Position numbers and translations under genes: made by a program
Shown: piece by piece, positions 5,424 through 25,705 of the stretch
How positions within the stretch are numbered: position 1 is the stretch's first letter
Layout of the letters: each line of letters opens with the position of its first letter
IMG/VR virus record: IMGVR_UViG_3300032116_010476
Span: 1-64,000 of that record
Reading direction: 5' to 3' (one strand)
From: a virus
Length of the DNA: 64,000 nt
Notes under the pieces: model-generated
Told to the model about the DNA's origin: nothing
The model's database searches: none
What the model saw: the letters and a program-made list of their open reading frames with translations, nothing else

Positions 5424-5441
5424 ATGATACTGTATATAAGT

Positions 5442-6359
5442 ATGTCTGAAATTATAGAAGAAAAAAACAAAAAGACGGTCAGCTTTTCACAATATTCAGG
5501 ATGGTTCAAGTGTCCTCATAGTTGGTATCTTAATTATTTGAAAGGTTTGCGTGTATATGAGTCGAGTCTAAACACTTGTTTTGGTACCGCTATTCATAAT
5601 ACACTTCAAGATTATATTAAGTCATTGTACACCGATGGTGCAGAAGTGGCAGACGAAATAGATTTGGTTAAAAAGTTCCGTGAGGAATTTACCCGTATTC
5701 TTTCCGAAGAAAAAGATAACATGAAGGAACCATATACGGATGATGACGTTACCGAATTCATGTTTGATGGTGAAGATATTCTAAAGACCTTTAGTAGTTC
5801 CGCCAACCGTATCAAGTATTTTCCGAGTCGGAAGTATGAATTCATTGGAGTTGAAGTTCCATTGGATGTACCGATCAAGAATAACGTTCGGTTTATTGCG
5901 TATGTTGACTTGATTCTACGTGATAAGACTTCTGGTAAATACAAGATTTGGGACTTCAAAACAAGTTCGATGGGGTGGAACAAGTATCAGGTTGCTGATG
6001 AAAGTAAGTATTCACAGTTATTGTTGTACAAGGCGTTTTACTCCAAACAGTTCAATGTTCCTTTGGATTCCATTGATGTCGAGTTTTTTATTCTAAAGCG
6101 TAAGTTGTATGAGAATGTTGCGTTTCCACAAAATCGAATTCAAATCTTTGAACCGGCTAATGCTAAGAACTATGTTTCAAAGTCGTTGGTGACGTTTACA
6201 TCCTTTATTGATGAATGTTTTACACCGGAAGGAACTTATAAGGAAGATGGTTATTATCCAAAAGTTCCGGGTAAAGCTAAAAAGAACTGTAAGTATTGTA
6301 CACACTACAAGACAAACTGTGACGGAAAAGAAACCAAAGACGATAAAGACGACAATTAA
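5442..6359 (+). CDS. PD-(D/E)XK nuclease, Cas4/RecB-like
   Basis: A 305-aa nuclease of the RecB/Cas4-type PD-(D/E)XK family. Seen: a SFSQYSGWFKCPHSW start with the first Cys, then CFGTAIHNTLQDYI carrying the conserved His. The core follows, with FIAYVDLILRD giving the Asp and WDFKTS giving the D-x-K catalytic residues. Next comes a YSQLLLYKAFY helix, the Q-x3-Y-like motif. The C-terminus has C-x2-C-x5-C (CKYCTHYKTNC), which with the N-terminal Cys could bind a 4Fe-4S cluster as in Cas4/AddB. It probably processes DNA ends in recombination or host DNA degradation. I prefer ATG 5442 (SEIIEEKN...) over the upstream ATG 5424; neither has a good ribosome binding site. Confidence 0.85.
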   Translation: MSEIIEEKNKKTVSFSQYSGWFKCPHSWYLNYLKGLRVYESSLNTCFGTAIHNTLQDYIKSLYTDGAEVADEIDLVKKFREEFTRILSEEKDNMKEPYTDDDVTEFMFDGEDILKTFSSSANRIKYFPSRKYEFIGVEVPLDVPIKNNVRFIAYVDLILRDKTSGKYKIWDFKTSSMGWNKYQVADESKYSQLLLYKAFYSKQFNVPLDSIDVEFFILKRKLYENVAFPQNRIQIFEPANAKNYVSKSLVTFTSFIDECFTPEGTYKEDGYYPKVPGKAKKNCKYCTHYKTNCDGKETKDDKDDN

Positions 6360-6381
6360 AAATAACCATTTGTATTGCGTA

Positions 6382-6395
6382 TATATACGTATATA
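6382..6395. promoter_or_regulatory. 14-bp perfect palindrome, likely operator of the RHH gene
   Basis: TATATACGTATATA is a perfect inverted repeat ending 7 bp before the ATG of the ribbon-helix-helix gene. RHH proteins of the CopG/Arc/MetJ type bind short palindromes and often repress their own promoter. Self-regulation is a reasonable inference. Confidence 0.45.
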
Positions 6396-6402
6396 CAAAG
6401 TT

Positions 6403-6633
6403 ATGGCAAAAGTTCTAACCAGCGTCAAGATCGAACCGGAGGTGTACGATCAATTTAAACAAAACACCTCCAATATCAAGTTTCATTTGCAAGATCTAGT
6501 CAATAGGTCTATGCATTTGTTTTTAACTGATACAAACTTTAGAGACACAGTATTGAATTATCATATTCCAGTATTGTCAACCGAAAGTCAAAAAATAAAA
6601 CTATCAAGTGTAACACAATCAGAAACAGTATAA
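6403..6633 (+). CDS. ribbon-helix-helix (CopG/Arc-type) DNA-binding protein
   Basis: 76 aa from ATG 6403; the longer reading frame upstream overlaps the nuclease gene and is not needed. The N-terminus KVLTSVKIEPEVYDQFKQ looks like the RHH beta strand and first helix, and FHLQDLVNRSMHLFLTD like the second helix. The remainder is a polar tail. It is a likely small dimeric transcriptional regulator. It sits directly upstream of the glycosyltransferase run and behind a 14-bp palindrome, so it may control that run. Confidence 0.6.
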   Translation: MAKVLTSVKIEPEVYDQFKQNTSNIKFHLQDLVNRSMHLFLTDTNFRDTVLNYHIPVLSTESQKIKLSSVTQSETV

Positions 6634-6639
6634 TAAGTT

Positions 6640-7191
6640 ATGGCAAAAAAGAAAATTCTTTTATTGAGTGATGATTTGCGTATGCATAGTGGTGTATCTA
6701 CTATGAGTCGTGAATTGGTCATTGGTACAGTTCATCATTATGATTGGGTTCAAATCGCAGGAGCGATTAACCATCCCGATCAAGGAAAGATTATAAATCT
6801 TAGTGATGAAATTAAGAAAAATACAAACGTACAAGATGCGTATGTTACATTATATCCCACCGCAGGATATGGTAACGAAGATATATTGTATACAGTTATT
6901 GCAAGAGAAAATCCTCACGCAATTATGCATTTTACAGATCCTCGTTATTGGGGATGGTTATACGCGATTGAACGTGAACTTCGTAAGAAGATTCCCATCA
7001 CATATCTTAATATTTGGGATGATCTACCATATCCTATGTGGAATCGTCCATTCTACGAAAGCTGTGATGCGTTGTTTAGTATCAGCAAACAAACTTATAA
7101 CATCAATAAGTGGGTACTTGGACCTGAAAACTGTACCACTTTAGACGGTGATTTTGACAAAGACGGTAACATTATCAAGGAGAACGTTTAA
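6640..7191 (+). CDS. glycosyltransferase GT4-like, N-terminal half (split gene)
   Basis: 183 aa covering only the N-terminal Rossmann domain of a GT-B glycosyltransferase. KKILLLSDDLRMHSGVST is the donor-side entry loop of GT4 enzymes, and NIWDDLPYPMWNRPFY and CDALFSISK are typical of the interdomain side. It ends in TAA (7189-7191), and the next gene begins at ATG 7195 in the same frame and supplies the missing C-terminal domain. Together they equal one normal-sized GT4 enzyme of about 508 aa. Either the halves associate as two polypeptides, the stop is read through, or the gene is broken. Confidence 0.8.
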   Translation: MAKKKILLLSDDLRMHSGVSTMSRELVIGTVHHYDWVQIAGAINHPDQGKIINLSDEIKKNTNVQDAYVTLYPTAGYGNEDILYTVIARENPHAIMHFTDPRYWGWLYAIERELRKKIPITYLNIWDDLPYPMWNRPFYESCDALFSISKQTYNINKWVLGPENCTTLDGDFDKDGNIIKENV

Positions 7192-7194
7192 TAT

Positions 7195-8166
7195 ATGCCA
7201 ATCAAAGGAAAAACACTTTTACATTATGTACCCCACGGAATTAATAGTGAGGTATTTCGACCAGTAGATACGTCCGATAAAAACCTAATTGAAGGAAAGA
7301 AGAGATTCTTTAACGGTAACGAATACGATTATACAATCTTTTTCAATAGTCGTAACGTCAAACGTAAACAGGTTTCAAATGTAATTCTCGCATACCGAAT
7401 TTTCTGTGATAGTCTTTCTAAAGAAGACGCAAAGAAGGTGTGTTTGATTCTACATACTGAAGTCGTTGGTCAAAACGGTCACGGTACTGATCTTCCCGCA
7501 GTCAAGGAAGCCATTTGTCGTGATTATGTCGTATACTTCTCTCAACGTAAAATCACACCGGGAGAAATGAACTTGATGTATAACTTGGCAGATGTAACAA
7601 TTAACGCTTCCAGTAACGAAGGATTCGGATTGAGCGTCAACGAGTCCATTATGTCAGGTACTCCTGTTATTGTGAGTGTTACCGGTGGTCTACAAGATCA
7701 AATTGGACAAGTGGATGACAATGGTAACCCTGTTGAATTCACCAAAGAGTTTGGAACCAATAACGTTGGAAAGTATAAGAAACACGGTGTGTGGGCAAAG
7801 CCAGTGTGGCCAAGGGTTCACGATATGCATGGTAGTAATCAAACTCCATACATTTTTGATGATATGGTTGACCCCCGTGATTTGGCAGAAGCCATGATGT
7901 ATTGGTACCTAATTCCAAACGAAGAACGTACTCGTCGTGGTGAAGAAGGACGTAGATGGGCACTAAACGAAGGTGGATTGAACGCCGTAAATATGTGTAA
8001 CCAGTTTATCAAAGCCATGGATTACACGTTGGCAAATTTCACACCAAGTGAAAAGTTCACTCTGCACACCACCAAAGAACAAGTTGGACAGATACAACCA
8101 GATAATTGTATGGGAGTAGATTTCGGTAAAGTTGATATTGAAAAAGTTCAAAAGGAAATTGTATGA
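7195..8166 (+). CDS. glycosyltransferase GT4-like, C-terminal half (split gene)
   Basis: 323 aa with the nucleotide-sugar binding half of a GT4/GT-B enzyme. YVPHGINSEVF is the domain-entry motif and EGFGLSVNESIMSGTPVIVS the E-x7-E phosphate/ribose-binding motif. NSRNVKRKQVSNVILAY resembles the usual strand after the linker. It is in frame with the preceding gene and separated by TAA-TAT. AAGGAG (7178-7183 area) lies about 12 nt before the ATG and could drive separate initiation. It ends by overlapping the dUTPase start (ATGA). Confidence 0.85.
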   Translation: MPIKGKTLLHYVPHGINSEVFRPVDTSDKNLIEGKKRFFNGNEYDYTIFFNSRNVKRKQVSNVILAYRIFCDSLSKEDAKKVCLILHTEVVGQNGHGTDLPAVKEAICRDYVVYFSQRKITPGEMNLMYNLADVTINASSNEGFGLSVNESIMSGTPVIVSVTGGLQDQIGQVDDNGNPVEFTKEFGTNNVGKYKKHGVWAKPVWPRVHDMHGSNQTPYIFDDMVDPRDLAEAMMYWYLIPNEERTRRGEEGRRWALNEGGLNAVNMCNQFIKAMDYTLANFTPSEKFTLHTTKEQVGQIQPDNCMGVDFGKVDIEKVQKEIV

Positions 8167-8852
8167 AAATTCAAATATTAAAAAATGAAACATATCAAAC
8201 AGTGGATAACCTGCCTAAGAAAGGAACTGATAGAGCAACAGGTTATGATATCATCGCAACGAGTGGACCTGAAATTGTTGGTGAAAAAAATTATGAAATT
8301 GGAGGATATAAACGTATTGACTATATTCAATATCGCACTAATCTAAAACTTGCAGTTCAAAAAGATCGTGTATATAGTAATTTTGGTTATACAGATATCG
8401 ATCATGATGTACTTGCATTTCCTCGTAGCAGTGTCAGTAAATACAATTTAATCCTAGCTAACTGTATTGGATTGGTTGATGCAGATTATCGTGGTGAAGT
8501 TCTACTTCGATTTAAGTATATATTTCAACCAGAGGATTATAGTATTATTTCCCAACAAATTGTGGGCAACGTCAACGAAACTAAGATTTACAATATGGGT
8601 GATAAAATCTGTCAACTTAAAGTTACCAGAGTTGAAAACATCGAATTTGTTCTTGTTGACGAATTAGATGCTACAAATCGTGGTGAAGGTGGATTTGGAA
8701 GTACAGATACAAACACACCACCCGCAACACAACCAAAGTCCGGAAAAACTATTGAAGATTTAATGAAACAAAAGGAAGGGTACTTTGCATCTAATGCGCA
8801 AAAGTATTCTGACATGATCAAGGAAAGAGACAACAAACTTTTTGGAAATTAA
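8163..8852 (+). CDS. dut: dUTP pyrophosphatase-like (trimeric dUTPase) with C-terminal extension
   Basis: 229 aa. The five dUTPase motifs are visible: ATGYDIIA (motif 1, D for substrate metal), PRSSVSKY (motif 2), LVDADYRGEV (motif 3), GDKICQLKV (motif 4) and GEGGFGSTD (motif 5, the P-loop-like C-terminal arm). The enzyme converts dUTP to dUMP and keeps uracil out of phage DNA. It is longer than the usual 150 aa: there is an insert between motifs 1 and 2, and about 45 residues follow motif 5, ending in a charged helix. It overlaps the preceding glycosyltransferase by ATGA and sits oddly inside the sugar cluster. Confidence 0.9.
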   Translation: MKIQILKNETYQTVDNLPKKGTDRATGYDIIATSGPEIVGEKNYEIGGYKRIDYIQYRTNLKLAVQKDRVYSNFGYTDIDHDVLAFPRSSVSKYNLILANCIGLVDADYRGEVLLRFKYIFQPEDYSIISQQIVGNVNETKIYNMGDKICQLKVTRVENIEFVLVDELDATNRGEGGFGSTDTNTPPATQPKSGKTIEDLMKQKEGYFASNAQKYSDMIKERDNKLFGN

Positions 8853-8853
8853 T

Positions 8854-10167
8854 ATGAGCAAACCATTATGTGTTATACAAGGTCCAGTCTTTAGTCGCAG
8901 TGGCTATGGAGATTGGGCAAGAGAAGTTGCTAAAAGCATTCTTCGTTACAATAAATTCGATCTTCGCATCGCAACAACAAAGTGGGGTGGAAATCCCATC
9001 AAACGTTTTCAGGATGAATTGGATTCAAATGATCCACTCAATCTTGCATTGTTCGATAAGATGTTGAAAGAACCTTTGAATAGACAACCAGACTTGTTTA
9101 TTCAGATCTCAATACCCAATGAGTTCAAACCAATTGGCAAGTACAACATTGGAATGACCGCTGGTATTGAAACCACCGCTGCAGCTGGAGAGTGGATCGA
9201 AGGATTGAACAAGATGGACATGAATATTGTCACATCACGTCATTCCAAGAAGGTCTTTGACGATGCAGACTATACCAAGGAATATAAGGATGGTAGTGGA
9301 CGTAAAGAACAACTACGTAATACCAAACCAATCGAAGTGTGTTTCTGGGGTGCCAATACCGATATCTACAAGATCACCGATCAAAAGGTTGATTCTGTCG
9401 AAACGGTAATGAGTCAGATTCCTGAAAACTTTGCGTTTTTGTTCGTTGGTCAATGGACACATGATAATCCATTTCATGATCGTAAAGACATTGGCAACTT
9501 AATTAAGACATTCTTGAACACATTTAAGAACCGTCCTCAAAAGCCATGTTTGATTCTAAAGACCAGCGGTACAAACTATTCAAAGGTCGATAAAGATGCT
9601 ATCTTGAAGAAAATCAAAATCGCAGAATCACAGGTTGATGGTGATAAACCAAACGTGTATTTGATTCACGGTGAACTAAATGATGTGGAAATGAACGCTC
9701 TTTTCAACCATGAAAAGGTGAAGTGTCACGTTAGTTTCACACACGGTGAGGGTTTTGGTCATCCATTGTTGTTAGCATCTCTTAGCGGAAAACCCATACT
9801 TGCATCAGATTGGAGTGGTCACTTGGATTTCTTGGATTCTAATAGAGAGTGTTTGTTGCCAGGAAAGGTGGATGTAATCAATCCGGCATCAGCTAACCAA
9901 TGGTTAATCAAGGAATCTGCGTGGTTTACTGTGTCATACAGTCTGGCAGAAGAACGGTTGAAACAGTATTATTTCAGCATGAATCAAAAGACCAAGGATA
10001 ATGCTATTGCTTTAGCCGAACGTAATGCTCAACTATTTTCAACTCAAGCAATGGATCAAAAGTTACACGCTATTTTGGACAAGTATATTCCAGAATTTGC
10101 GGTTGAACAGAAAATCATGATTCCACAATTGAAGATGCCAAACAGTCCAAAACCAAACCTCAAATAA
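8854..10167 (+). CDS. glycosyltransferase, GT4 family
   Basis: 437 aa from ATG 8854; a TTG four codons upstream overlaps the dUTPase and is less likely. GT-B fold: the N-terminus has the glycine loop in GPVFSRSGYGDWAREV, and the C-domain has THGEGFGHPLLLASLSGKP, the GT4 E-x7-E region in which the second acid is replaced. FLFVGQWTHDNPF marks the strand at the start of the C-domain. It transfers a sugar from an activated nucleotide donor; the acceptor cannot be told. It is the second complete GT4-type unit of the cluster. Confidence 0.85.
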   Translation: MSKPLCVIQGPVFSRSGYGDWAREVAKSILRYNKFDLRIATTKWGGNPIKRFQDELDSNDPLNLALFDKMLKEPLNRQPDLFIQISIPNEFKPIGKYNIGMTAGIETTAAAGEWIEGLNKMDMNIVTSRHSKKVFDDADYTKEYKDGSGRKEQLRNTKPIEVCFWGANTDIYKITDQKVDSVETVMSQIPENFAFLFVGQWTHDNPFHDRKDIGNLIKTFLNTFKNRPQKPCLILKTSGTNYSKVDKDAILKKIKIAESQVDGDKPNVYLIHGELNDVEMNALFNHEKVKCHVSFTHGEGFGHPLLLASLSGKPILASDWSGHLDFLDSNRECLLPGKVDVINPASANQWLIKESAWFTVSYSLAEERLKQYYFSMNQKTKDNAIALAERNAQLFSTQAMDQKLHAILDKYIPEFAVEQKIMIPQLKMPNSPKPNLK

Positions 10168-10170
10168 CAT

Positions 10171-11379
10171 ATGGGAGCATATAGAGACAGATATTTGTTA
10201 GAACATACGTTGAAATTAAAAGAGAAATTTAAATCCAACGTTTTTATTGAAACTGGAACCAATGATGGAGATTCTATGGGAATTTTATCTCCTCATTTTC
10301 AGGAACTATATTCATGTGAAATCGTACCTGCAACGTATGAGTTGGCTAAAAACAACTTACAACATGCTAAAAACGTTACGGTGACAAATGAGTCATCTAT
10401 TACATTTTTGGAAACAATATGTCAGAAGTTTCAAGGACGAGAGGATGTAATCTTTTTCTTGGACGCCCATTGGGAAAAGTATTGGCCGTTGTTGGATGAA
10501 CTCAAAATCATCAAAAAGTATGGATTTGAATGTCCTATCATTATTCATGATTTTTATATCCCAGACGGTAAAGGTAATTCGAAGTTTAACTATGATTCAT
10601 ATGAAGATCAAAACTTGGACTTAAATTACGTCAAGAATGATATTTACAATGTATTCAATGGTAAATATGACATCTATTATCCAGACTACGTTACAGAACC
10701 GTCTGGATATGCGGTGTTTACTAAACAGTCAACTCCATTTGTGTCATTTCTTGTAACATGTCACAATGAAGGTGAACAACTGCGTAGTTTATTGACTCTC
10801 TTGTCAAAATACATTACCGGTAATGAAATCGTTGTGTTAGATGATTATTCAGATGACGAAGTTACACTCAATGTATTGAAAGACCACGAATTGGTTAATG
10901 GAATCAAAATTTCCAAACATCACCTAAATAAAGACTATGGTTCTCATAAGAACTTTGGAACTTCACAGTGTAGTGGCAAATACATATTTCAAATTGACGC
11001 AGATGAACTTCCCAACGAGATTCTTCTTGAAAATCTTAGAGACCTCATCGAATCAAACCTTAGTTGTGAAATGTTTTGGGTACCAAGAGTCAATAACTTT
11101 ATTGGTGTAACCTCAGAAGACATCAAAAATTATGGGTGGAGAGTCAATGAAAAGGGATATATCATGTGGCCTGACTATCAGTCCCGCATATACAAAAATC
11201 AACCTCATATTAAATGGGAACGTAAATTGCATGAAACCATCGTAGGATTCAAAGAGTTTACACGTATTCCTGCAATGGAAGAATTATCATTGTATCATAC
11301 AAAGACGATTGAAAAACAACGTAAAGATAATAGTAGATACATGAACGAATTCTCATTAGAAGATAATATTAGAAAGTGA
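10171..11379 (+). CDS. methyltransferase-like / GT2 glycosyltransferase fusion
   Basis: 402 aa with two domains. Residues 1-185 resemble a class I SAM-dependent methyltransferase: FIETGTNDGDSMG is glycine loop I, followed by CEIVPATYELAK and FFLDAHWE. Residues 188-402 are a GT-A domain of family GT2: VSFLVTCHNEGEQL, VLDDYSDDE and a QIDADE DxD motif at D276/D278. The fused enzyme could methylate and glycosylate the same glycan. Its stop overlaps the next start region. Confidence 0.8.
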   Translation: MGAYRDRYLLEHTLKLKEKFKSNVFIETGTNDGDSMGILSPHFQELYSCEIVPATYELAKNNLQHAKNVTVTNESSITFLETICQKFQGREDVIFFLDAHWEKYWPLLDELKIIKKYGFECPIIIHDFYIPDGKGNSKFNYDSYEDQNLDLNYVKNDIYNVFNGKYDIYYPDYVTEPSGYAVFTKQSTPFVSFLVTCHNEGEQLRSLLTLLSKYITGNEIVVLDDYSDDEVTLNVLKDHELVNGIKISKHHLNKDYGSHKNFGTSQCSGKYIFQIDADELPNEILLENLRDLIESNLSCEMFWVPRVNNFIGVTSEDIKNYGWRVNEKGYIMWPDYQSRIYKNQPHIKWERKLHETIVGFKEFTRIPAMEELSLYHTKTIEKQRKDNSRYMNEFSLEDNIRK

Positions 11380-11381
11380 TT

Positions 11382-12098
11382 ATGGAAAAAACTCCGGTAT
11401 ATTGTTTATACTCTCCTCAAATGGATGAAATATTTAACAAACACTTTTATCCATCATTTATAAAGTTTAATGAAAATAACTACGATCTTCGTATATTTGA
11501 AACTACTGTTGATGGAAATGGTGATTATAATACGGATGGATACATCGACTGTTTACATAATAAAACAAGATTGATGCTACAAACAACCAAAGAAAATCTG
11601 GGACGAAAAATTATATGGACAGATGTTGACATTAAATTCTTTTCTCCAATTGATTTAACATCATATGATAAAATGTTTACTGTTTTAAAAGAAGATGAAG
11701 ATCCATCAGATACATTTGTAAATCCAGCATTTTGTAAAATAGAATGTAACGATACGATGGTGGACTTTTTTGAAAAATTATTAACTAGTTGTAAACATAA
11801 TGATGTTCATGATATGGACGTTATTAATTACTTTTCGAATACCATTCCTTCAATAGAAATTGGTATATTTGATTTTAGATATCTTCAATATACGTCTTTA
11901 TCGTATAGAGATGACACGATACAATGTAACGTATGTTCAAATAACCATGGATGTTATAAATGTACACATCAACTATCAAATTTAGATACAATAGACACGT
12001 CGAAAATAATACTTTATCATGCAAATTGTACAATCAATACCGATAGATGTACCAGCATGGAACTAAAACTAGAACAACTAAATTATCTATCAAAATGA
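11382..12098 (+). CDS. GT-A type glycosyltransferase (nucleotide-sugar transferase-like)
   Basis: 238 aa from ATG 11382; an upstream GTG 11376 overlaps the previous stop. IIWTDVDIKFFSP carries a DVD metal-binding motif after a hydrophobic strand, as in nucleotide-diphospho-sugar transferases. The sequence ends in a Cys-rich loop (CNVCSNNHGCYKC) that may be a small zinc site, unusual for this class. Its last bases overlap the fucosyltransferase ATG (ATGA). Confidence 0.65.
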   Translation: MEKTPVYCLYSPQMDEIFNKHFYPSFIKFNENNYDLRIFETTVDGNGDYNTDGYIDCLHNKTRLMLQTTKENLGRKIIWTDVDIKFFSPIDLTSYDKMFTVLKEDEDPSDTFVNPAFCKIECNDTMVDFFEKLLTSCKHNDVHDMDVINYFSNTIPSIEIGIFDFRYLQYTSLSYRDDTIQCNVCSNNHGCYKCTHQLSNLDTIDTSKIILYHANCTINTDRCTSMELKLEQLNYLSK

Positions 12099-12907
12099 TT
12101 ACCATTACAATTGGACTAAATGGAAGATTTGGAAATCAAATGTTTCAATATGCATCATTGATGGGTATTGCAGATAAACAAAACTGTTTATATGGAATTG
12201 ACTATTCTATCGGAAATAAAATTCCTTGGTACGATTTTACTGACAATGAGATTGTTAACAAACAAACTTTTGTACTACCAAAAGCATTTCATCTATCTGC
12301 TTTACAATGTAATGAAAAATATAGAATGGTTCATGAAGGAAACCATTTTCATTTTAACCAAGAACTTTTTAACGTTGGTGATGATGTACATTTACATGGT
12401 TACTTTCAAACTGAAAAATATTTTAAACATATAGAATCAACAGTTAGATCCGAATTTACATTTAGACATGATATAGTTAATACAGTAAAAGAGTATTTAA
12501 AAGATAAACAATCATACGAAACTGTTTCTATTCATGTACGTAGAGGTGATTATGTACATTTATCACATCACGGTACATGTGATTTAACATATTATAGCAA
12601 TGCGTTAAGTCATTTTACCGATAAATCATATAATTTTATAGTGGTGTCAGATGATATCGAATGGGCAAAATCAACCTTTACCGGAAATGATAACTTTTTC
12701 GTATCCGAGTCTTGTAACCAATTTGTTGATATGTGCATTATGACCCAGTGTAGTCATAACATTATTGCCAACAGTACATTTAGTTGGTGGGGGGCGTGGT
12801 TGAACGCCAATCCAAATAAAAAAGTTATTGCACCTTCACGTTGGTTCGGTCCAGATGTAACTTTAAACACTAAAGATTTATATGTACCAAGTTGGATTGT
12901 AATATGA
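12095..12907 (+). CDS. alpha-1,2-fucosyltransferase (GT11)
   Basis: 270 aa, starting at the ATG overlapping the previous stop (ATGA); a longer frame starting at 12047 is not needed. The GT11 motifs are clear: GRFGNQMFQYA (residues 10-20), IHVRRGDY (146-153, the GDP-fucose binding HxRRGDY) and NSTFSWWGAWLN near the C-terminus. Family knowledge: GT11 enzymes transfer fucose from GDP-fucose to the 2-OH of galactose, making the H-type (Fuc-alpha1,2-Gal) epitope. No GDP-fucose synthesis genes are seen here, so the donor must come from the host or from outside this window. Two genes downstream lies a GT6 enzyme, whose mammalian relatives act on exactly this product. Confidence 0.93.
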   Translation: MITITIGLNGRFGNQMFQYASLMGIADKQNCLYGIDYSIGNKIPWYDFTDNEIVNKQTFVLPKAFHLSALQCNEKYRMVHEGNHFHFNQELFNVGDDVHLHGYFQTEKYFKHIESTVRSEFTFRHDIVNTVKEYLKDKQSYETVSIHVRRGDYVHLSHHGTCDLTYYSNALSHFTDKSYNFIVVSDDIEWAKSTFTGNDNFFVSESCNQFVDMCIMTQCSHNIIANSTFSWWGAWLNANPNKKVIAPSRWFGPDVTLNTKDLYVPSWIVI

Positions 12908-13734
12908 AAATTCCTAAAGAAATTCAAACAATACAAAAAGCAAAAACCATCACAGATGGTTTGATTCCATTACAAGAGTGTACGTTTATCATACCTGTTT
13001 GCATTGAAAGTGACGACAGAAAGAAAAACTTTAGCATAATATACGACTATCTACGTCGTAATTTTGAGACTAACATTATTGTTTATGAGTGTTCTAAAGA
13101 ACCAATCGTGTCATCTTTAATCAAAGACGATGTGACTTATATACATCAAAACATACCAGATGAATCGTTTCATAGAACACGATATTTAAACCGTATGTTG
13201 GCATTATCAGACACCACAGTTACAGTAAATTATGACGCTGACGTGATTCTCCCAATCGAATCTTACCTAATGGCATACAAAAAGATTACTCGTCAAAATC
13301 ATGACTTGGTATATCCATTTGCTATGGGAAAATTTCAAAAGAAGATTGGTACGTCTGGAAGAGAAAAGTTGTTAAACCAAGCGTCCGTGGTAGAACTCAC
13401 CTCTCAAGACTATTCAGATTGTGTTGCGGAATATGGTCATTGTCAATTTTTCAAAACATCATCATATAAAAAATACGGGTGGGAAAATGAAAACTTTATA
13501 TCGTATGGTCCAGAAGATCGTGAAAGATACGAACGGTTCAAAAAATTCAATACCACCGTTACACACCTTGATAAAGGATTTGTATATCACATAGAACATA
13601 GTCGTGGATCAGACTCTAGCGATAAAAATCCTTATTTCAAGTCGAACAATGATTTATATAAAAAATTGGGTGATATGAATCAAGATCAGTTAAATACCTA
13701 TTACAAAGACGTTGAGTATTTGAAGAATTATTAA
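12904..13734 (+). CDS. glycosyltransferase, galactosyltransferase-like GT-A
   Basis: 276 aa from ATG 12904, overlapping the fucosyltransferase stop. An N-terminal helix precedes FIIPVCIESDDRKKNF, the GT2-like start, then VNYDADVILP with a DAD metal site. FISYGPEDRERYERF matches the G-x-E-D catalytic motif seen in beta-galactosyl/GalNAc transferases and chondroitin polymerase-type domains. It could make the galactose-containing acceptor for the fucosyltransferase, but that is inferred from order only. Confidence 0.75.
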   Translation: MKIPKEIQTIQKAKTITDGLIPLQECTFIIPVCIESDDRKKNFSIIYDYLRRNFETNIIVYECSKEPIVSSLIKDDVTYIHQNIPDESFHRTRYLNRMLALSDTTVTVNYDADVILPIESYLMAYKKITRQNHDLVYPFAMGKFQKKIGTSGREKLLNQASVVELTSQDYSDCVAEYGHCQFFKTSSYKKYGWENENFISYGPEDRERYERFKKFNTTVTHLDKGFVYHIEHSRGSDSSDKNPYFKSNNDLYKKLGDMNQDQLNTYYKDVEYLKNY

Positions 13735-13737
13735 GTT

Positions 13738-14448
13738 ATGAAAATTGCCGTTATTACGTTAGCGACCAACAAATATAAATCATTTTTACATCCTTTGTGG
13801 ACTTCGGTTAAGAAACATTTCATACCAAGTGCGCAAAAGGATTTTTACTTTTTCACGGACGAAAAGTTAGAGTGGTTTGATGAATCGGTCAAATGGTATA
13901 AGATAGAACACCAACCTTGGCCATATATTACTTTGAAACGTTTTGAATTCATTTCATCGTGTATCAAAGAACTATCCGATTACGATTACGTGTTCTATAT
14001 TGATAGCGACATGGAATTTGTAGATACACTTCTCACATTTGATATTAACAATAAAAAATATTATGCAGTTTGTCATCCGTCAGTTGTCTCTAACTTAAAC
14101 TTCTGGCCAATAGAAACAAATCCAAATTCCACCGCATATATTCCAGAACGACACCGTTGTGTTTATGTTCAAGGATGTGTATGGGGAGCGAAAGGCAATC
14201 ACATAGAATATATGGTTAACGTGATGAAAAACAACATCGACACTGACCTTAAAAACAATATTATTGCTGTTTGGCATGATGAATCACATCTTAACAAGTT
14301 TATCGTAGACCATCGAAAAGAAGCTGCTATTTTAAGTCCGAGTATGGCATACCCAGAACATTGGAATTTGCCAGTTAACAAATTGATGATTCATAAAGAT
14401 AAAAACATGGAAGAATATCCACGATTCAAAGGAGCGTCACCTTCATGA
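13738..14448 (+). CDS. GT6 family glycosyltransferase (histo-blood-group ABO type)
   Basis: 236 aa, catalytic domain only, as in bacterial GT6. Seen: PWPYITLKRFEF, then YVFYIDSDMEF with DSD (D89/D91) in place of the mammalian DVD, and WHDESHLNK at 179-187. The last is almost identical to the ABO catalytic loop (WHDESHLNKY), followed by the LSP segment. Known family role: retaining alpha-1,3 transfer of Gal or GalNAc, in many members onto Fuc-alpha1,2-Gal. Many bacterial GT6 have NxN instead of DxD, so the metal site here is of the vertebrate type. A GT6 homologue is known from a cyanophage, so phage carriage has precedent. It starts 3 bp after the previous stop. Confidence 0.93.
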   Translation: MKIAVITLATNKYKSFLHPLWTSVKKHFIPSAQKDFYFFTDEKLEWFDESVKWYKIEHQPWPYITLKRFEFISSCIKELSDYDYVFYIDSDMEFVDTLLTFDINNKKYYAVCHPSVVSNLNFWPIETNPNSTAYIPERHRCVYVQGCVWGAKGNHIEYMVNVMKNNIDTDLKNNIIAVWHDESHLNKFIVDHRKEAAILSPSMAYPEHWNLPVNKLMIHKDKNMEEYPRFKGASPS

Positions 14449-15407
14449 AAATAGTTATATGGGGTCATCCTTTGTATTCGCATACACATTCGTATGTTCA
14501 TTCATCTTATTATAAGGCAGCATCTCACATGGGACATGAAGTTTATTGGTTTCATGACAAAGACTATCCCAAAGATTTTGATTACTCCAATTGTGTTTTT
14601 ATAACAGAAGGATTTGCAGACAACAACATTCCGTTGAATTCTAGCAGTACGTATTTTGTGATGTATTGTCCGTCACCCAAAAAGTATTTGAACGCTGGAG
14701 TTAAACGATATATTGATGTTCGATGTGCCGCTAAAAATCATAAGGACCATATACACGATTATTCAGTAGATAAAACTACCACTCAAAAAATAGGACCATC
14801 TTGTTATTATGTTCCTAAAACCAATCAAAAAGTACATATCAAAAACAATTATGTAGACTATACCATTGACGATTTTGATAAGTTCTACTTGAGTTGGGCA
14901 ACTAACCTATTACCAGAAGAATTTGATTTAAATGATGTTTATCGTCAACGAGAAAACTCCATTTATTTTTGTGGAAGTCTTTCCAACTCTGGTATATGTG
15001 AAAACATGAGCAATTGGCTTCCATTTATACAGGAATGTAAACGTAATAATATTACCTTTTATCATAATGATCCATGGAGAAATCCAATATCAGATGATAA
15101 AGTGAAAGAATTGGTACAAAAATCAATACTGGGAATTGATATTCGTGGATCAGAACATGCTAGAACCGGCATTGTTACGTGCAGAATATTCAAAAATGTT
15201 AGCTATGGTCATTTGGGTTTAACAAACTCTCAAGAGATATACAACGAAATGGAAGGACATTGTTTGTATCACTCAAATCCCGTGGAATTATTTAACATCG
15301 GTATGCAACATCGAACAGACTATGATTTCATAAAAAAATCAATGTTGTATGTAAAAGAAAATCATACCTATATAAACAGAATCAACAGTTTATTTTCAAT
15401 TTTATAA
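14445..15407 (+). CDS. putative GT-B glycosyltransferase
   Basis: 320 aa. The N-terminus KIVIWGHPLYSHTHSYVHSSY begins like a GT-B Rossmann domain. A C-terminal region with GHLGLTNSQEIYNE and VELFN resembles the donor-binding end of GT-B enzymes that lack the classic E-x7-E. No precise family is recognised. It overlaps the GT6 stop by ATGA. The role as a transferase rests partly on its neighbours. Confidence 0.55.
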   Translation: MKIVIWGHPLYSHTHSYVHSSYYKAASHMGHEVYWFHDKDYPKDFDYSNCVFITEGFADNNIPLNSSSTYFVMYCPSPKKYLNAGVKRYIDVRCAAKNHKDHIHDYSVDKTTTQKIGPSCYYVPKTNQKVHIKNNYVDYTIDDFDKFYLSWATNLLPEEFDLNDVYRQRENSIYFCGSLSNSGICENMSNWLPFIQECKRNNITFYHNDPWRNPISDDKVKELVQKSILGIDIRGSEHARTGIVTCRIFKNVSYGHLGLTNSQEIYNEMEGHCLYHSNPVELFNIGMQHRTDYDFIKKSMLYVKENHTYINRINSLFSIL

Positions 15408-15410
15408 TTT

Positions 15411-16016
15411 ATGTTTAAATCAGACGCTTTTCAAGATCAGTTTGTACACAAAATTCTTAACGGAAAACGTAATGGTTATTTCGTAGACATCGGAAGTTGT
15501 GGTGCAATTAATTCTAACAACACATACTTCTTTGAATCACTTGGATGGAAAGGTATATGCATAGAAATCGAAAAAGGTTATGCGGACAGTTATCATAGTA
15601 GATCGTGTACTTTTATAAATCAAAATGCATTAACCATCAATTATAAAGATTTATTTGAACACCAAAATTCTCCAAAATGGATAGATTATCTATCGGTGGA
15701 TATAGATGAACTTAGTATTGATGCTTTAAAACTATTGCCACATGACATATATAAATTCGGCGTTATCACCATTGAACATGACGGATACATTTATGGTGAC
15801 AAATATAGAAATCAACAACGTGATTTTTTGAATAATCTTGGATATCACCTATTAGGATCAAACGTTCGTGTACCAGATCGTCATTTTAGGTCGTTAAGCA
15901 CGTTAAATCATTTGAATAATAATGGATTTGAAGATTGGTGGATACATCCTACTTTAAATGTAAACAACTATAAATTTGATCAAATATTTCCGGAAGATTT
16001 GATTTCTCAAATATGA
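15411..16016 (+). CDS. FkbM-type SAM-dependent methyltransferase
   Basis: 201 aa. FVDIGSCGAINSNNTYFFE is the SAM glycine loop, WKGICIEIEKGY the acid that binds the ribose, and DYLSVDIDELSIDAL the FkbM-type strand 4, with a long C-terminal part. FkbM enzymes O-methylate sugars or polyketides. In a glycan operon this likely caps or decorates a sugar. It is the second of three methyltransferase-type domains in the cluster. Confidence 0.8.
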   Translation: MFKSDAFQDQFVHKILNGKRNGYFVDIGSCGAINSNNTYFFESLGWKGICIEIEKGYADSYHSRSCTFINQNALTINYKDLFEHQNSPKWIDYLSVDIDELSIDALKLLPHDIYKFGVITIEHDGYIYGDKYRNQQRDFLNNLGYHLLGSNVRVPDRHFRSLSTLNHLNNNGFEDWWIHPTLNVNNYKFDQIFPEDLISQI

Positions 16017-16951
16017 AAATATTCTTGGTTAACCATAAAATACAAAACTGCGGCGTATACCAATATGGTAAACGCGTATCGTCTATTATTTCCAAATCAA
16101 ATAACTTAGTTGTTCATTATTTGGAAATGGACAATCGTGAAGAATTTCAAAAAGAAGTTGACACTCATAAACCTCAAGTTATTGTATACAATCATCTTAC
16201 GGGTACGATGCCTTGGGTTGATAAAATGTATGTAGATGAACTACGTCAATTAGGCATCAAACAAGGAACGATAGTTCATAATGTTGCATATTCGACATTC
16301 TTTGATTTTTACTTACACCAAGACCCCAATTATCAACCAAATGAAAATAACTATCGTCTGTTGAGACCCTTGTTTGAATACACCAACAACCTTAATTTGA
16401 ATCCAAACGTACTTAAAATTGGATCTTTTGGATTTGGCTTTGCATCCAAACAATATGAAACGTTATGCGCATGTGTTAGAGATAACTTTTATAGGACAAC
16501 GTTTCCTATCGAACTACGATTACATCTAACACATTCTCATTTTTGTGAAAATACAAGAGATATTGAAACAATCAAATTTGTGGCAAATCGTATTATCAAC
16601 AATCCTAACATAACGTTGAAGATTACTACAAACTTTATAAGTGACGATGAATTATTAACATTTCTTGCTGGCAATGACCTTAATATCTTCTTCTACCAAA
16701 AATACACCAGTTATAACGGAATATCATCATCTATAGATTACGCTTTATCAGTCAAACGTCCGATTGCAATTTGTCGTAGTAATATGTTTTCACACATTTG
16801 GAATACTCAACCATCTATTTGTGCAGAAGATAATTCGTTAAAAGAAATCATAAATAACGGTTTTGGTCCGTTGGAAAAATACTATAATGAGTGGTCTCAT
16901 GAAAACTTCATTAAAGTTTTTGAAGACAATATTAATAATGTTATAAAATGA
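16013..16951 (+). CDS. putative GT-B glycosyltransferase
   Basis: 312 aa. The start KIFLVNHKIQNCGVYQYGKRV has the G-x-x-x-Y-G loop of GT-B enzymes, and NIFFYQKYTSYNGISSSIDYALSVKRPIAI has the layout of a GT4-type donor site with S replacing the acid. It overlaps the methyltransferase upstream and the next gene by ATGA. Donor and acceptor are unknown. Confidence 0.65.
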   Translation: MKIFLVNHKIQNCGVYQYGKRVSSIISKSNNLVVHYLEMDNREEFQKEVDTHKPQVIVYNHLTGTMPWVDKMYVDELRQLGIKQGTIVHNVAYSTFFDFYLHQDPNYQPNENNYRLLRPLFEYTNNLNLNPNVLKIGSFGFGFASKQYETLCACVRDNFYRTTFPIELRLHLTHSHFCENTRDIETIKFVANRIINNPNITLKITTNFISDDELLTFLAGNDLNIFFYQKYTSYNGISSSIDYALSVKRPIAICRSNMFSHIWNTQPSICAEDNSLKEIINNGFGPLEKYYNEWSHENFIKVFEDNINNVIK

Positions 16952-17694
16952 GTACGTTGGGTGTATTAGTTACGTGTTACAACGAAGTACGAGCATTGGA
17001 ATTTTCATTACCAATGTTCAGAAAAATATATCCATATTCCAAAATTTATCTAACCACAGAAAGTTCAAATACCAATTTTGATTCGTTGTTATCTTTAAAC
17101 AATATTAAAATAAACCATGTAGAAGATACAATGTATATAATCAAACAAGTAAACGATCAAAACTTTGTAGAACCATACTTTCAAGAAAAAATATTATTCG
17201 CAACACGTTCATTTTTAAACCGCGTCAAACAAGCAATAGAATTCTGTCAATCTGATTATTTATTGTTGATGGATCCTGATACTCTTGTTCGTGGTCCATT
17301 GTCTTTGCCAGAAGGTGCCAAATTATTGGGATCCAGAATTAACTGGGGATTGCCTTCGGCACTAAGAACTATACTTGCACAAACTCCCGGTGCGATTGAT
17401 ATTAACTGTTGGGGAGCAACCCCGGCAATAATCCATTGTGAAACCTTTTTAAAATCATATAAGTATGTGACCGAACAAGATCCTACTTTTTTACCACGTA
17501 TAACAAAAACATTTTACGCTGTTTTTGCACACGATGTAATACTTCCTATTTTATTTGCACTGCAAGGAGAACATGAAATATACAATCCGGAAATAATCGA
17601 ATGTCACAGAAACCATTATTGGAGACAGACCTCTCATCCTTTGGTTCATCAATTTAAATATCTTTATGACAACAATCGTAACGGCACTTTATAA
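16948..17694 (+). CDS. GT-A type glycosyltransferase
   Basis: 248 aa. GVLVTCYNEVRALEFSLPMF is a GT2-like start and YLLLMDPDTLVRGP gives a DPD metal motif (two Asp spaced by Pro). WGATPAIIHCETF and AHDVILPILFAL resemble the acceptor half. Its 3' end overlaps the next gene by about 28 nt in a different frame, the largest overlap in the cluster. Confidence 0.7.
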   Translation: MSTLGVLVTCYNEVRALEFSLPMFRKIYPYSKIYLTTESSNTNFDSLLSLNNIKINHVEDTMYIIKQVNDQNFVEPYFQEKILFATRSFLNRVKQAIEFCQSDYLLLMDPDTLVRGPLSLPEGAKLLGSRINWGLPSALRTILAQTPGAIDINCWGATPAIIHCETFLKSYKYVTEQDPTFLPRITKTFYAVFAHDVILPILFALQGEHEIYNPEIIECHRNHYWRQTSHPLVHQFKYLYDNNRNGTL

Positions 17695-18415
17695 CATCAA
17701 TCGTGAACAACGTGGTGACGGTAGACCTTTTAGAGACTATCTTAAATGGCTTCCAGAAACATTATCTCTTTCATGCAACTATGTTATATACACCGAATCG
17801 GGTGTGGTTCCATACATTCCACAAAAACCTAATATTAAGGTTATTGTGACTTCACCCGATCAAATACCTTTATATAACAAATGTGGGACAATACAGAGTA
17901 TATTGAACAATCCTGAGTATCTACAAAAAATCAAACATCCAAATAGAGTTGAGTGTGTATTGCCAATGTATAACATTATTCAATACTCTAAATTTGAATG
18001 GTTGAAACGTACTATAAAAGAAAATCCATTCAATTCAGAGTATTTCTTTTGGATGGACGCTGGGTGTAGTCGTTTTTTTGAGAATCTTCCAAAATCGTTT
18101 CCAAATCCCGACAAACTTCCACCAAAATTTTTGATTCAAGGTAATTATAATACCAACAGAATTCCCATTGACGATAACTATAAATGGATGTCGGATTGTG
18201 TATTGGTAGGAACTTTCTTTGGTGGCCATCATGAATACGTAACTCAAGTATCAGATCTTACATTGAAATTTTTACAAGAAGAAATGTTAGATCAAAACAT
18301 GATTAATAACGAACAAATTGCATTAGCTTATATTTGTAAGCGTAATCCGTCATTGTTTAATGTATATATACAGTTGAACGGACAACATTTACCCGTACTA
18401 AAAATACTTGTATGA
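17666..18415 (+). CDS. HtrL/YibB-like glycosyltransferase
   Basis: 249 aa. The opening TTIVTALYNINREQRGDGR with RPFRDYLKW, and the central FFWMDAGCSRFF, are characteristic of the HtrL/YibB family. That family is linked to lipopolysaccharide or capsule sugar transfer in enteric bacteria and nematodes. The DAG triad probably replaces DxD. It overlaps its upstream neighbour by 28 nt and the downstream methyltransferase by ATGA. Confidence 0.8.
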   Translation: MTTIVTALYNINREQRGDGRPFRDYLKWLPETLSLSCNYVIYTESGVVPYIPQKPNIKVIVTSPDQIPLYNKCGTIQSILNNPEYLQKIKHPNRVECVLPMYNIIQYSKFEWLKRTIKENPFNSEYFFWMDAGCSRFFENLPKSFPNPDKLPPKFLIQGNYNTNRIPIDDNYKWMSDCVLVGTFFGGHHEYVTQVSDLTLKFLQEEMLDQNMINNEQIALAYICKRNPSLFNVYIQLNGQHLPVLKILV

Positions 18416-19035
18416 ACGAATCATTTTTTGCAGAACATAAAGAAGACCAATTTCTTAGATCAAAATACTTTCCAGATTATGGTTACAAAGGTACATTGGT
18501 TGAAGTCGGCGGTGCAACTCCAGAGTTTATATCTGTATCTCGTCACTTTACATTAAACGGATGGAGAACTGTTATTGTAGAACCAAATCCGACATTTGCT
18601 AAACAACACCGTGATATTGGAAATGAAATATATGAATATGCCGCGTCTGAGACTGACGAAGATGATGTAGATTTTACAATAGTTCATATCACAGGTGGCA
18701 GTGTTACCGATCATGCCTTTTCTTCTTTAAAGATCAAAGAATCATATCAGTCAATATCAAAAGGTTGGGTAAATAAATTAAACAAAACCCAAATTAAAGT
18801 TAAACAACGTCGTTTGGATACAATAATTAAAGAAGCGAATATCGAACAAATCGATATTCTTTCAGTTGATACTGAAGGTTGGGAGTTAGAAGTCATGAAC
18901 GGACTTAGTTTACTCAAACCCAAAGTTATCATGTTGGAAAACATTTTTAATGAAGACTCTTATCGTGAATATATGGCCCTAAAAGGTTATATGTTTGACG
19001 CTAGAATTAAAGATAACGACGTTTATATATCATGA
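18412..19035 (+). CDS. FkbM family methyltransferase
   Basis: 207 aa. TLVEVGGATPEFISVSRHF is the SAM loop, RTVIVEPNP the ribose acid strand, VKQRRLDTIIKEANIEQIDILSVDTEGWE the signature FkbM segment (L-D-x5-VDxEG), and LKPKVIMLEN the following strand. It is expected to O-methylate a sugar hydroxyl. It overlaps both neighbours by ATGA. Distinct from the enzyme at 15411, which lacks the EGxE ending. Confidence 0.88.
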   Translation: MNESFFAEHKEDQFLRSKYFPDYGYKGTLVEVGGATPEFISVSRHFTLNGWRTVIVEPNPTFAKQHRDIGNEIYEYAASETDEDDVDFTIVHITGGSVTDHAFSSLKIKESYQSISKGWVNKLNKTQIKVKQRRLDTIIKEANIEQIDILSVDTEGWELEVMNGLSLLKPKVIMLENIFNEDSYREYMALKGYMFDARIKDNDVYIS

Positions 19036-19979
19036 AAATTTCAATTATTGGACCGGGAATTATGCCCATTCCTCCAAAAGGATGGGGTGCTGTAGAATCT
19101 CTCATATGGGATTATAATATCGAATTGACTAAATTGGGTCACGAAGTACAAATTGTTAATACTCAGGACCGTCGAGAGATTGTCAATCAAGTTAACCAAT
19201 ACAACCCTGACTTCGTACATCTTCAATATGACGATTTGTACGACGTGTTACCGTATATTAATTGTAAACACAAGGCTGCAACTACTCACTATGGTTATTT
19301 AGAACAACCACATCGTTATGGTGGTTACGTTAGAATCTTTGAAGCGTTTGTTCGTGGAGATTTCAACATCGTTTGTTTATCAGAAGGCATCAAGAACGTA
19401 TATAAACACTATGGTGTAAACGATAATAGACTATACGTTGTATGTAATGGCGCTAGACAAGACCTGTTTAAATATACATCGACACCTTCTAAACCCGGAA
19501 AGAGCGTGTATCTAGCTAAGATCACCGATAGAAAACGTCAATGGTTGTATCAAAACATCAACGGCATTGATTTTGTTGGAAATAAAGACGACAATCGTTT
19601 TGATTTTTCACGTACAAACTATATTGGTGAGTGGGATAAACCAACACTATATGAAAATCTAACCAATTATGCCAATTTGGTCTTGTTAAGCGATGGAGAA
19701 GCAGATCCTCTTGTTACCAAAGAAGCGTTGATGGCAGGACTTGGAGTGGTTATTTCAGAATGTTCTGTCGCTAATTTGGATTTGACAAAACCATATATCA
19801 GCGTAGTCTCTGAAAATAAGATCTATGATTTGAATTATATTCGTGGTGTTATTGAAACAAATAGACAGCAATCTTTGTTACACCGTGAAGAAATTCGTCA
19901 GTATGGAATTACGAATTTTGCATGGGAAAATGTCGTAAAACATTATCTTAATGTGGTGAATCAAATTGTTTCAAAATAA
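19032..19979 (+). CDS. glycosyltransferase, GT4 family
   Basis: 315 aa. KISIIGPGIMPIPPKGWGAVE is the classic GT4 N-terminal loop. NIVCLSEGIKNVYKHYGV and YVVCNGARQDLF mark the hinge, and LSDGEADPLVTKEALMAGLGVVISE carries the donor-site acids (ExDPLVTKEALM). It lies 3 bp before the mutase gene and could use the UDP-galactofuranose made there; that pairing is inferred. Confidence 0.85.
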   Translation: MKISIIGPGIMPIPPKGWGAVESLIWDYNIELTKLGHEVQIVNTQDRREIVNQVNQYNPDFVHLQYDDLYDVLPYINCKHKAATTHYGYLEQPHRYGGYVRIFEAFVRGDFNIVCLSEGIKNVYKHYGVNDNRLYVVCNGARQDLFKYTSTPSKPGKSVYLAKITDRKRQWLYQNINGIDFVGNKDDNRFDFSRTNYIGEWDKPTLYENLTNYANLVLLSDGEADPLVTKEALMAGLGVVISECSVANLDLTKPYISVVSENKIYDLNYIRGVIETNRQQSLLHREEIRQYGITNFAWENVVKHYLNVVNQIVSK

Positions 19980-19982
19980 GTT

Positions 19983-21068
19983 ATGTACGATTATCTGATT
20001 GTAGGAAGCGGTTTGTTTGGATCAGTATGTGCGCATGAACTAACCAAAAAAGGCAACAAATGTTTGGTTATTGATAAACGCAACCATATTGGAGGCAACT
20101 GTTATACCGAAAACAAAGACGGTATCAATGTTCATGTTTACGGACCTCACATCTTTCATACATCCAACAAAGAAATTTGGGATTACGTAAACCAGTTTGC
20201 TAAGTTTAATAACTTTATCAACCGTCCAAAGGTATTTTATAAGAACTCACTATACTCTTTTCCGATTAATCTGTTTACATTACATCAAATTTATGGCGTA
20301 ACTACACCAGAAGAAGCAAAAAAGAAACTAGAAGAAGTTCGGGTCAAAAACGACAACCCTAAAAACTTGGAAGAGTGGATCGTATCCCAAGTTGGAGTAG
20401 ACATTTATATGATGTTTATAAAAGGGTATACAACCAAACAGTGGGGAAGACATCCAATTGATTTACCAGCATCCATTATCAAACGATTGCCGATACGTTT
20501 TAACCACGATGATAATTACTTTAACGACACGTATCAAGGTATTCCTATTGGAGGATACACTCAGATATTTGAAAAGTTATTGAATGGAATTGAAGTACGA
20601 TTAAATGAAGATTATTTGCAAAACAAAGAGTCGTTTAATAGTATAGCAAAAAAAGTAATTTATACCGGTCCAATTGACGCTTATTATAACTACAGATTCG
20701 GTCAATTAAATTACAGAAGTCTTAAATTTGAAACCGAGCGAGTTGAGGTTCCAGATTATCAAGGTAATGCGGTTGTTAATTATACCGAATTACATCATCC
20801 AGAAACCCGTATAGTTGAACATAAACATTTTGATCCTGTCAATACAGACTTCACCTATATTACCCGTGAATATCCAAGAGAGTACGGAGAGGGTCTTGAA
20901 CCGTATTATCCCGTCAATGATAAAGTTAATACGCCTGTATATGAAAAGTATAAAGCGTTGACCGAAAATGAAATCAATGTTATATTTGGAGGTAGATTGG
21001 CAGAATACCGATACTATGACATGCATCAAGTAATTGGATCTGCACTACATACCTGTAAAAAACTATGA
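19983..21068 (+). CDS. glf: UDP-galactopyranose mutase
   Basis: 361 aa, full length. The FAD-binding start is YLIVGSGLFGSVCAHEL, with NHIGGNCYTE and VYGPHIFHTSN (substrate His) behind it. YTTKQWGRHP and the tail LAEYRYYDMHQVIGSAL are standard Glf segments. The enzyme converts UDP-Galp to UDP-Galf, the donor for galactofuranose. It is a soluble flavoprotein and needs reduced FAD. Its presence shows the phage prepares a specific donor, so at least one neighbouring transferase probably adds Galf. Confidence 0.95.
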   Translation: MYDYLIVGSGLFGSVCAHELTKKGNKCLVIDKRNHIGGNCYTENKDGINVHVYGPHIFHTSNKEIWDYVNQFAKFNNFINRPKVFYKNSLYSFPINLFTLHQIYGVTTPEEAKKKLEEVRVKNDNPKNLEEWIVSQVGVDIYMMFIKGYTTKQWGRHPIDLPASIIKRLPIRFNHDDNYFNDTYQGIPIGGYTQIFEKLLNGIEVRLNEDYLQNKESFNSIAKKVIYTGPIDAYYNYRFGQLNYRSLKFETERVEVPDYQGNAVVNYTELHHPETRIVEHKHFDPVNTDFTYITREYPREYGEGLEPYYPVNDKVNTPVYEKYKALTENEINVIFGGRLAEYRYYDMHQVIGSALHTCKKL

Positions 21069-21970: not shown

Positions 21971-22311
21971 TCGACATACTAAATACAATATTTATCGGAG
22001 TTACGTTTTTGGTTGTGTGGTTTCATACAGAAGCGTTTGTTGAATACTGCAACCTATTTAATTTGAAACGTCTGTTTAAAATTGGTGAATTTGAAAAAGC
22101 ACAAGAAAGTGATTTCAGTTTGGAATATTTGTCGTGGCTAAAACAAACATATCCAAACTTTTTTACCAAACTTGTTAATTGTCCATGGTGTATTGGATTC
22201 TGGTTTACTCTACTATCTTCATGGATTTTCTCCACATTTTACATATTTCCGGTAATTTATGTGTTTACACTTGTTATATATTTACTGATCGTAAATAAGT
22301 TTTTTAGATAA
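21967..22311 (+). CDS. small membrane protein with CPWCIGFW motif
   Basis: 114 aa with an N-terminal hydrophobic helix (residues 4-20) and two more helices in the last 45 residues, joined by a Cys-pair loop NCPWCIGFW. The pattern recalls DUF1360-type membrane proteins, known in bacteria and phages, of unknown function. It is translationally coupled to the last transferase and could anchor or export the product, but this is speculative. Confidence 0.6.
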   Translation: MIDILNTIFIGVTFLVVWFHTEAFVEYCNLFNLKRLFKIGEFEKAQESDFSLEYLSWLKQTYPNFFTKLVNCPWCIGFWFTLLSSWIFSTFYIFPVIYVFTLVIYLLIVNKFFR

Positions 22312-22312
22312 T

Positions 22313-24825: not shown

Positions 24826-24826
24826 A

Positions 24827-25690: not shown

Positions 25691-25705
25691 AACCGGTAAT
25701 ATATA

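Follow-up and report, generated by a model that had tools for sequence, protein, structure and literature searches.

In humans and some bacteria, enzymes of glycosyltransferase families 11 (GT11) and 6 (GT6) build the blood-group H sugars and then the A or B sugars. Escherichia coli O86 has a complete O-antigen locus with export machinery. Its H-to-B pathway employs an alpha-1,2-fucosyltransferase of GT11 followed by the GT6 enzyme WbnI, which form Fuc-alpha-2-Gal (Fuc, fucose; Gal, galactose) and then the B determinant (PMC4202792). BoGT6a of Bacteroides ovatus, a metal-independent GT6 with NAN as its motif, transfers N-acetylgalactosamine (GalNAc) and forms A-antigen-like products on 2'-fucosyllactose (PMC3961637). 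We analyzed a GT11 gene and a GT6 gene at 12095-14448 of a 64,000-nucleotide stretch of viral DNA (positions 1 to 64,000 of IMG/VR record IMGVR_UViG_3300032116_010476; hereafter the window). The window virus is record G000 of 72.6 kb, and G001, a 126.8-kb IMG/VR contig of the same virus, contains the window sequence without any difference. We consider it probable, if not secure, that GT11 and then GT6 catalyze the committed last steps in the synthesis of a short branched glycan of the H-to-B kind.

GT6 has already been noted in print for two cyanophages (PMC3961637), and GDP-mannose 4,6-dehydratase (GMD), GDP-fucose synthase (Fcl) and fucosyltransferases were reported in cyanophage S-SCSM1 (PMC9602691). 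Annotated GT11 and GT6 genes stand side by side in the cyanophage isolates P-SSM2, S-CAM9 and DSL-LC02, and the pair is not unique to the window phage. In these Kyanoviridae and in ACG-2014f, B23 and Bellamy, as in the window, GT11 precedes GT6 on one strand within an operon of sugar genes, and in these phages the two genes usually abut. Their GT6 proteins have DXD like that of the window and, P-SSM2 excepted, the same Gln-Gly-Cys donor site. The window virus differs from these clusters in that it has an inserted middle gene, its GMD lies at a distance from the pair and Fcl was not seen. In Synechococcus phage Bellamy (L034), gene 202 (5786-6502), annotated simply as a glycosyltransferase, aligns as another GT6 right after GT11. 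A search outside subscription papers found no paper that describes GT11-GT6 pairing in phages. What is new here is the near-obligatory pairing, its asymmetry, the donor-site signature shared among viruses and the presence of the pair in a myovirus lineage nearest Mel-JY01 by polymerase.

The order on the plus strand is GT11, a GT2/GT7C-like middle gene and GT6, all in one tightly packed operon whose neighboring genes overlap by ATGA or are separated by 3 bases, an arrangement consistent with translational coupling. The GT11 gene (12095-12907, ATG start at 12095) encodes 270 amino acids of the alpha-1,2-fucosyltransferase family. It matches Pfam PF01531 (Glyco_transf_11) with E = 2.1e-34 and 119.5 bits against a cut-off of 23.9, over positions 26-296 of the 298 in the profile, and PHROG 2644 with E = 8e-79; a sequence search of the PDB gave no useful match. 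Alignment with nine phage GT11s showed that the GDP-fucose motif HxRRxDY is intact as HVRRGDY (12533-12553), as is the C-terminal motif NSTFSWWGAW, with SWWGA at 12782-12796.

The GT6 gene (13738-14448, plus strand) encodes 236 amino acids of the ABO/BoGT6a family and matches Pfam PF03414 (Glyco_transf_6) with E = 1.8e-24 and 86.6 bits against a cut-off of 25. The best solved relatives in the PDB search were BoGT6a (E = 1.8e-26) and the human ABO transferases (E~1e-22). The AlphaFold model has a predicted local distance difference test (pLDDT) score of 91.8, and its template modelling (TM) score is 0.88 to BoGT6a (4AYJ) and 0.75-0.83 to ABO structures. The motifs DSD (the DXD equivalent, 14002-14010), HP and WHDE (14272-14283) are intact, and the C-terminal Lys in HKDKN aligns with DKN of BoGT6a. 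The phage protein resembles BoGT6a in fold, at 29% identity, as well as in its minimal catalytic domain, WHDE and C-terminal Lys. With the human transferases GTA and GTB it shares the GT6 fold, DXD, WHDE and His233, at about 25-27% identity in the fold alignment. A preliminary description of this DNA, made from the letters alone, had assigned the two families, noted their intact motifs and placed them in one operon. All of this was borne out, and the ends of its interval match the GT11 ATG and the GT6 end.

The wider viral set comprised 78 GT6 loci from IMG/VR in 41 clusters at 90% identity, and the counts below are given per cluster unless single proteins are named. DXD and His233 are retained in 78/78 viral GT6s, and WHDE in all readable ones. 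Since DXD is found in all 78, the phage GT6 is likely metal-dependent. In this it differs from BoGT6a and from bacterial GT6s, most of which have NXN instead of DXD (PMC3961637); WbnI itself is likened to the phage enzyme by description. At the positions equivalent to ABO 266-268 (14170-14178 in the window), Gln-Gly-Cys is present in 77/77 readable viral GT6s. Gln266/Cys268 fits neither the characterized A enzymes (Leu266/Gly268 in GTA, or Ala/Gly, as with Ala266/Gly268 in BoGT6a) nor the B enzymes (Met266/Ala268 in GTB). It has been proposed that GalNAc can be used only when position 266 or 268 is Gly (PMC4692239), and a bulky residue at 266 was reported to exclude this sugar (PMC4202792). 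On this published reasoning, Gln266/Cys268 suggests Gal rather than GalNAc as the donor sugar, and the A-type product entertained in the preliminary description is less likely than one with Gal.

The acceptor site is half retained. His233 and Trp300 are present and Ser235 is like that of the B enzyme, yet Phe236 is replaced by Val and Thr245 by Pro. Because of this, a fucosylated acceptor for GT6 is supported by the genomic pairing more than by the residues of the acceptor site.

That pairing is close. In 40/41 viral GT6 clusters, a same-strand GT11 gene is found no more than 2 kb upstream, and in 34 of them it is directly upstream (within 100 bases). The converse does not hold, as only 11 of the 62 viral GT11 clusters are followed by a GT6 no more than 2 kb downstream (40/41 versus 11/62, Fisher p~3e-17). 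Among controls taken from comparable gene clusters, GT11 is directly upstream in 4/34 viral GT25 clusters (p~4e-10) and in 8/38 clusters of the middle-gene family (p~3e-8; both Fisher). Of 80 GT6 genes in cellular genomes, 51 have a GT11 no more than 5 kb away, on either side. The dependence of GT6 on GT11 is therefore asymmetric and appears in several gene orders, which supports the idea that GT11 makes the acceptor of GT6. Action of GT6 on the product of GT11 had been put forward in the preliminary description as an inference, and the recurrence of the asymmetric pairing in both viruses and cells lends support to that proposal.

The precursor supply was examined beyond the window. The statement in the preliminary description that GDP-fucose genes are lacking is right for the 64-kb window, where none was found, but not for the virus. 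G001 carries a GMD homologue outside the window (L015:8671-9930, 419 amino acids) that matches GMDs in the PDB with E values down to 2e-70. TIGR01472 is by far its best family at 312 bits, yet this is under the equivalog cut-off of 415. GMD is also present in G002, G004, G005 and G007. GMD and Fcl occur together in the more distant GT11-GT6 viruses G008, G010, G011 and G012 and in P-SSM2 and DSL-LC02. A small NifU/IscU-like iron-sulphur scaffold protein, judged by eye from the sequence, is encoded directly 3' of the phage GMD (L015:9936-10337).

A number of observations weigh against the view that GT11 and GT6 act in succession on one chain. L043, the sole exception among the 41 clusters, has a GT6 with only a distant downstream GT11. 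GT11 is common in phage glycan clusters, and one is present within 2 kb in each of the 38 middle-family clusters. For this reason nearness alone is a weak argument, and the case rests on direct order and asymmetry. The GT11 family also contains an alpha-1,3-fucosyltransferase, HhFT2 (PMC4202792), and no assayed enzyme was found from this viral GT6 clade. The replacement of Thr245 and Phe236 counts on the same side. Fcl was not found in the window lineage, where G001 gave only a cross-hit to RmlB, although the contig may be incomplete. Furthermore, cellular GT6s with DXD and Ala-Gly-Gly are mostly without a nearby GT11 (13/16), so the family as such needs none. As GT11 is mostly missing near this group, in which the unpaired cellular GT6s are concentrated, a different acceptor is suggested for it; the group, one among the cellular GT6 loci L194-L273, includes Dependentiae and Chlamydiota. 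Finally, the distances among GT11s and those among GT6s co-vary (Mantel r 0.88).

This last result bears on an alternative in which the two enzymes serve separate branches of a larger glycan and GT6 takes an acceptor without fucose. The pair would then owe its conservation solely to being transferred as a block. Mammalian alpha3GT, a member of the GT6 family, does use unfucosylated acceptors. The strong co-variation, the loss of Thr245 and Phe236 and the frequency with which GT11 adjoins other phage glycosyltransferases are also in line with such an arrangement. The co-divergence weakens the notion that GT6 recruited GT11 independently dozens of times, and the pairs appear to be largely one inherited unit, not 40 independent events. 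The trees nevertheless speak against block movement as the whole explanation. Viral GT6s form one clade that includes two cellular rows (support 98), with P-SSM2 apart. The tree indicates that the P-SSM2 GT6 was acquired separately, yet it too has GT11 upstream, and its operon also includes gmd and fcl. When the pairing label was placed on the GT11 tree, about 13 changes were needed and at least 6 were forced by well supported branches; distant GT11 partners accompany a few close GT6s. Given these changes, either GT11 partners were exchanged or GT6 was repeatedly gained or lost while the pairing held. Together with the 40/41 versus 11/62 asymmetry and the occurrence of both gene orders in cells, these results make separate branches unlikely in our judgment.

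The window GT6 falls in a viral subclade of just 8 rows (support 97), separate from that of the Kyanoviridae. The close relative L040 has orthologues of GT11 (77%) and GT6 (79%) that abut. When L040 1-16702 was compared with window 5424-21970, the flanks were conserved and the pair was retained, while the genes after GT6 (about 14445 to 18415) had diverged or been replaced. We take such turnover between conserved flanks to be typical of surface-sugar loci.

The gene between GT11 and GT6 (about 12904-13734, plus strand) encodes a GT-A glycosyltransferase of the GT2/GT7C kind. Translation probably begins at ATG 12904, which forms an ATGA overlap with the GT11 stop, and not at TTG 12892. The protein carries NYDAD and ENENFxxYGPED motifs and matches PHROG 15655 (E = 3.8e-66), but its likeness to GT7C is weak (PF02709, 19.5 bits, under the cut-off of 23). 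Since a sequence search of the PDB gave no useful match, the protein was modelled. The AlphaFold model (pLDDT 84.6) has a GT-A fold for which the best Foldseek match is the chondroitin polymerase K4CP (E = 2e-10), with the beta-1,4-galactosyltransferase B4GalT1 and other transferases close behind; fucosyl- and N-acetylglucosaminyltransferases match equally closely. The preliminary description had called this a galactosyltransferase-like gene between the other two. The position and the GT-A fold near B4GalT1 agree with that description, whereas the GT7C match is sub-threshold and the gene is not a required member of the set.

If the middle protein were a beta-galactosyltransferase that supplies the galactose acceptor, the three genes would encode three consecutive steps. 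The GT7C-like C-terminal motif, the fold neighbors K4CP and B4GalT1 and the constant presence of a nearby GT11 (38/38 viral clusters of its family) favor this scheme, as do L116 and L117, in which GT11 is followed by the middle gene without GT6. We nonetheless regard it as doubtful. Fucosyl- and N-acetylglucosaminyltransferase folds fit the protein just as well, L040 retains GT11 and GT6 without the gene, and across viruses the middle-gene family commonly neighbors GT11 but rarely GT6, most viral GT11-GT6 pairs being without it. Because L040 has the abutting pair alone and L116 and L117 have GT11 and the middle gene alone, the comparison indicates that the GT11-GT6 pair is the core and the middle gene a dispensable insert.

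For the succession of GT11 and GT6, we propose the following pathway. The phage GMD would make GDP-4-keto-6-deoxymannose, and a host reductase or a phage gene yet unseen would complete GDP-fucose. GT11 would place alpha-1,2-fucose from GDP-fucose on a terminal beta-galactoside. GT6, which would require a divalent metal at its DXD and the earlier GT11 step, would then transfer a hexose, most likely galactose, from a UDP-sugar to that same galactose in alpha-1,3 linkage. The Fuc-Gal core is thus likely extended by alpha-Gal, and the predicted end product is an H-to-B-like Gal-alpha-1,3-(Fuc-alpha-1,2-)Gal terminus. The middle gene may add another or an earlier sugar and would be optional.

The families for an initiating transferase, a flippase and a polymerase or ligase (PF02397, PF01943, PF00953 and PF04932) were not found in five related viruses, whose contigs may be incomplete. 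In view of this, the glycan would be built in the cytoplasm and then either be attached to a host lipid-linked or lipopolysaccharide precursor that the host exports, so that the surface of the host is altered and rival phages are blocked, or be placed on a virion protein. The second destination, in which the operon glycosylates virion proteins and the GT11-GT6 end decorates capsid or tail, competes with the host surface as the destination and not with the chemistry of GT11 followed by GT6. Cytoplasmic assembly accords with it, and capsid and tail tube glycans are recorded for mycobacteriophages in work cited in PMC12619734. On the other hand, host export machinery could do the work instead, similar cyanophage clusters were interpreted as modifying O-antigen or capsule against superinfection (PMC7824862), and virion glycoprotein data for these phages were not found. 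We consider decoration of the virion possible, although we would not call it probable.

It has also been suggested that the GT6 genes of DSL-LC02 and DSL-LC03 serve to decorate phage DNA bases against restriction (PMC10611076). Phage DNA glycosyltransferases do exist, but the close homology to BoGT6a and ABO, enzymes that act on Fuc-Gal, the tight pairing with GT11 and the GDP-fucose genes in many of these viruses all speak against such a role. No base-hydroxylating gene was seen adjoining the pair. We judge this explanation highly improbable.

The pair is part of a glycan gene operon at about 5424-22606 (plus strand) that also encodes GT4 proteins, a GT2, an FkbM methyltransferase, HtrL/YibB, a dUTPase and unassigned proteins. 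The gene immediately 5' of GT11 (11376-12098, plus strand) matches no Pfam family and is missing from the relative L038. A UDP-galactopyranose mutase, Glf, is encoded at 19983-21068 (plus strand; TIGR00031, 416.7 bits, cut-off 303.75). Adjoining the operon on the minus strand (22607-26545) are RmlB (22607-23566), a sugar C-methyltransferase (23563-24825, PF08484), an RmlD-like gene (24827-25690) and RmlA (25706-26545). TIGR01181 and TIGR01207 were matched over their cut-offs and TIGR01214 at 75.6 bits. These genes likely constitute a pathway to a dTDP-linked branched or methylated deoxysugar. The gene at 22607-23566, which matches PF16363, was considered as a GMD candidate and ruled out, as it is RmlB over its cut-off. 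Elsewhere in the window, a 396-amino-acid protein (30322-31512, minus strand) matches the Druantia defence protein DruA (PF14236, 75.6 bits).

The DNA polymerase of the window virus is nearest that of Microcystis phage Mel-JY01 (45%) and about 31% identical to those of Synechococcus phages. This places the virus in a myovirus lineage other than the Kyanoviridae cyanophages with GT11-GT6. Because the named relatives infect aquatic cyanobacteria, the mimicry suggested as possible in the preliminary description, if understood as mimicry of vertebrate blood groups, is unsupported.

The present results turn an anecdotal annotation into a testable rule, namely that in aquatic phages GT6 is accompanied by GT11. 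More broadly, we tentatively propose, at a little short of an even chance, a virus-specific cassette of two enzymes, in which the Gln-Gly-Cys clade of GT6 and an almost obligatory GT11 would build an H/B-like fucosylated trisaccharide during infections by aquatic phages, many of them with GDP-fucose genes of their own. If a fucosylated H/B-like glycan is indeed made, phages would join vertebrates and bacteria as a third kind of producer of these sugars. The unusual donor pocket would be useful for enzyme work, and a defined sugar would provide a handle on whether the sugar clusters of cyanophages remodel the host surface or the virion.

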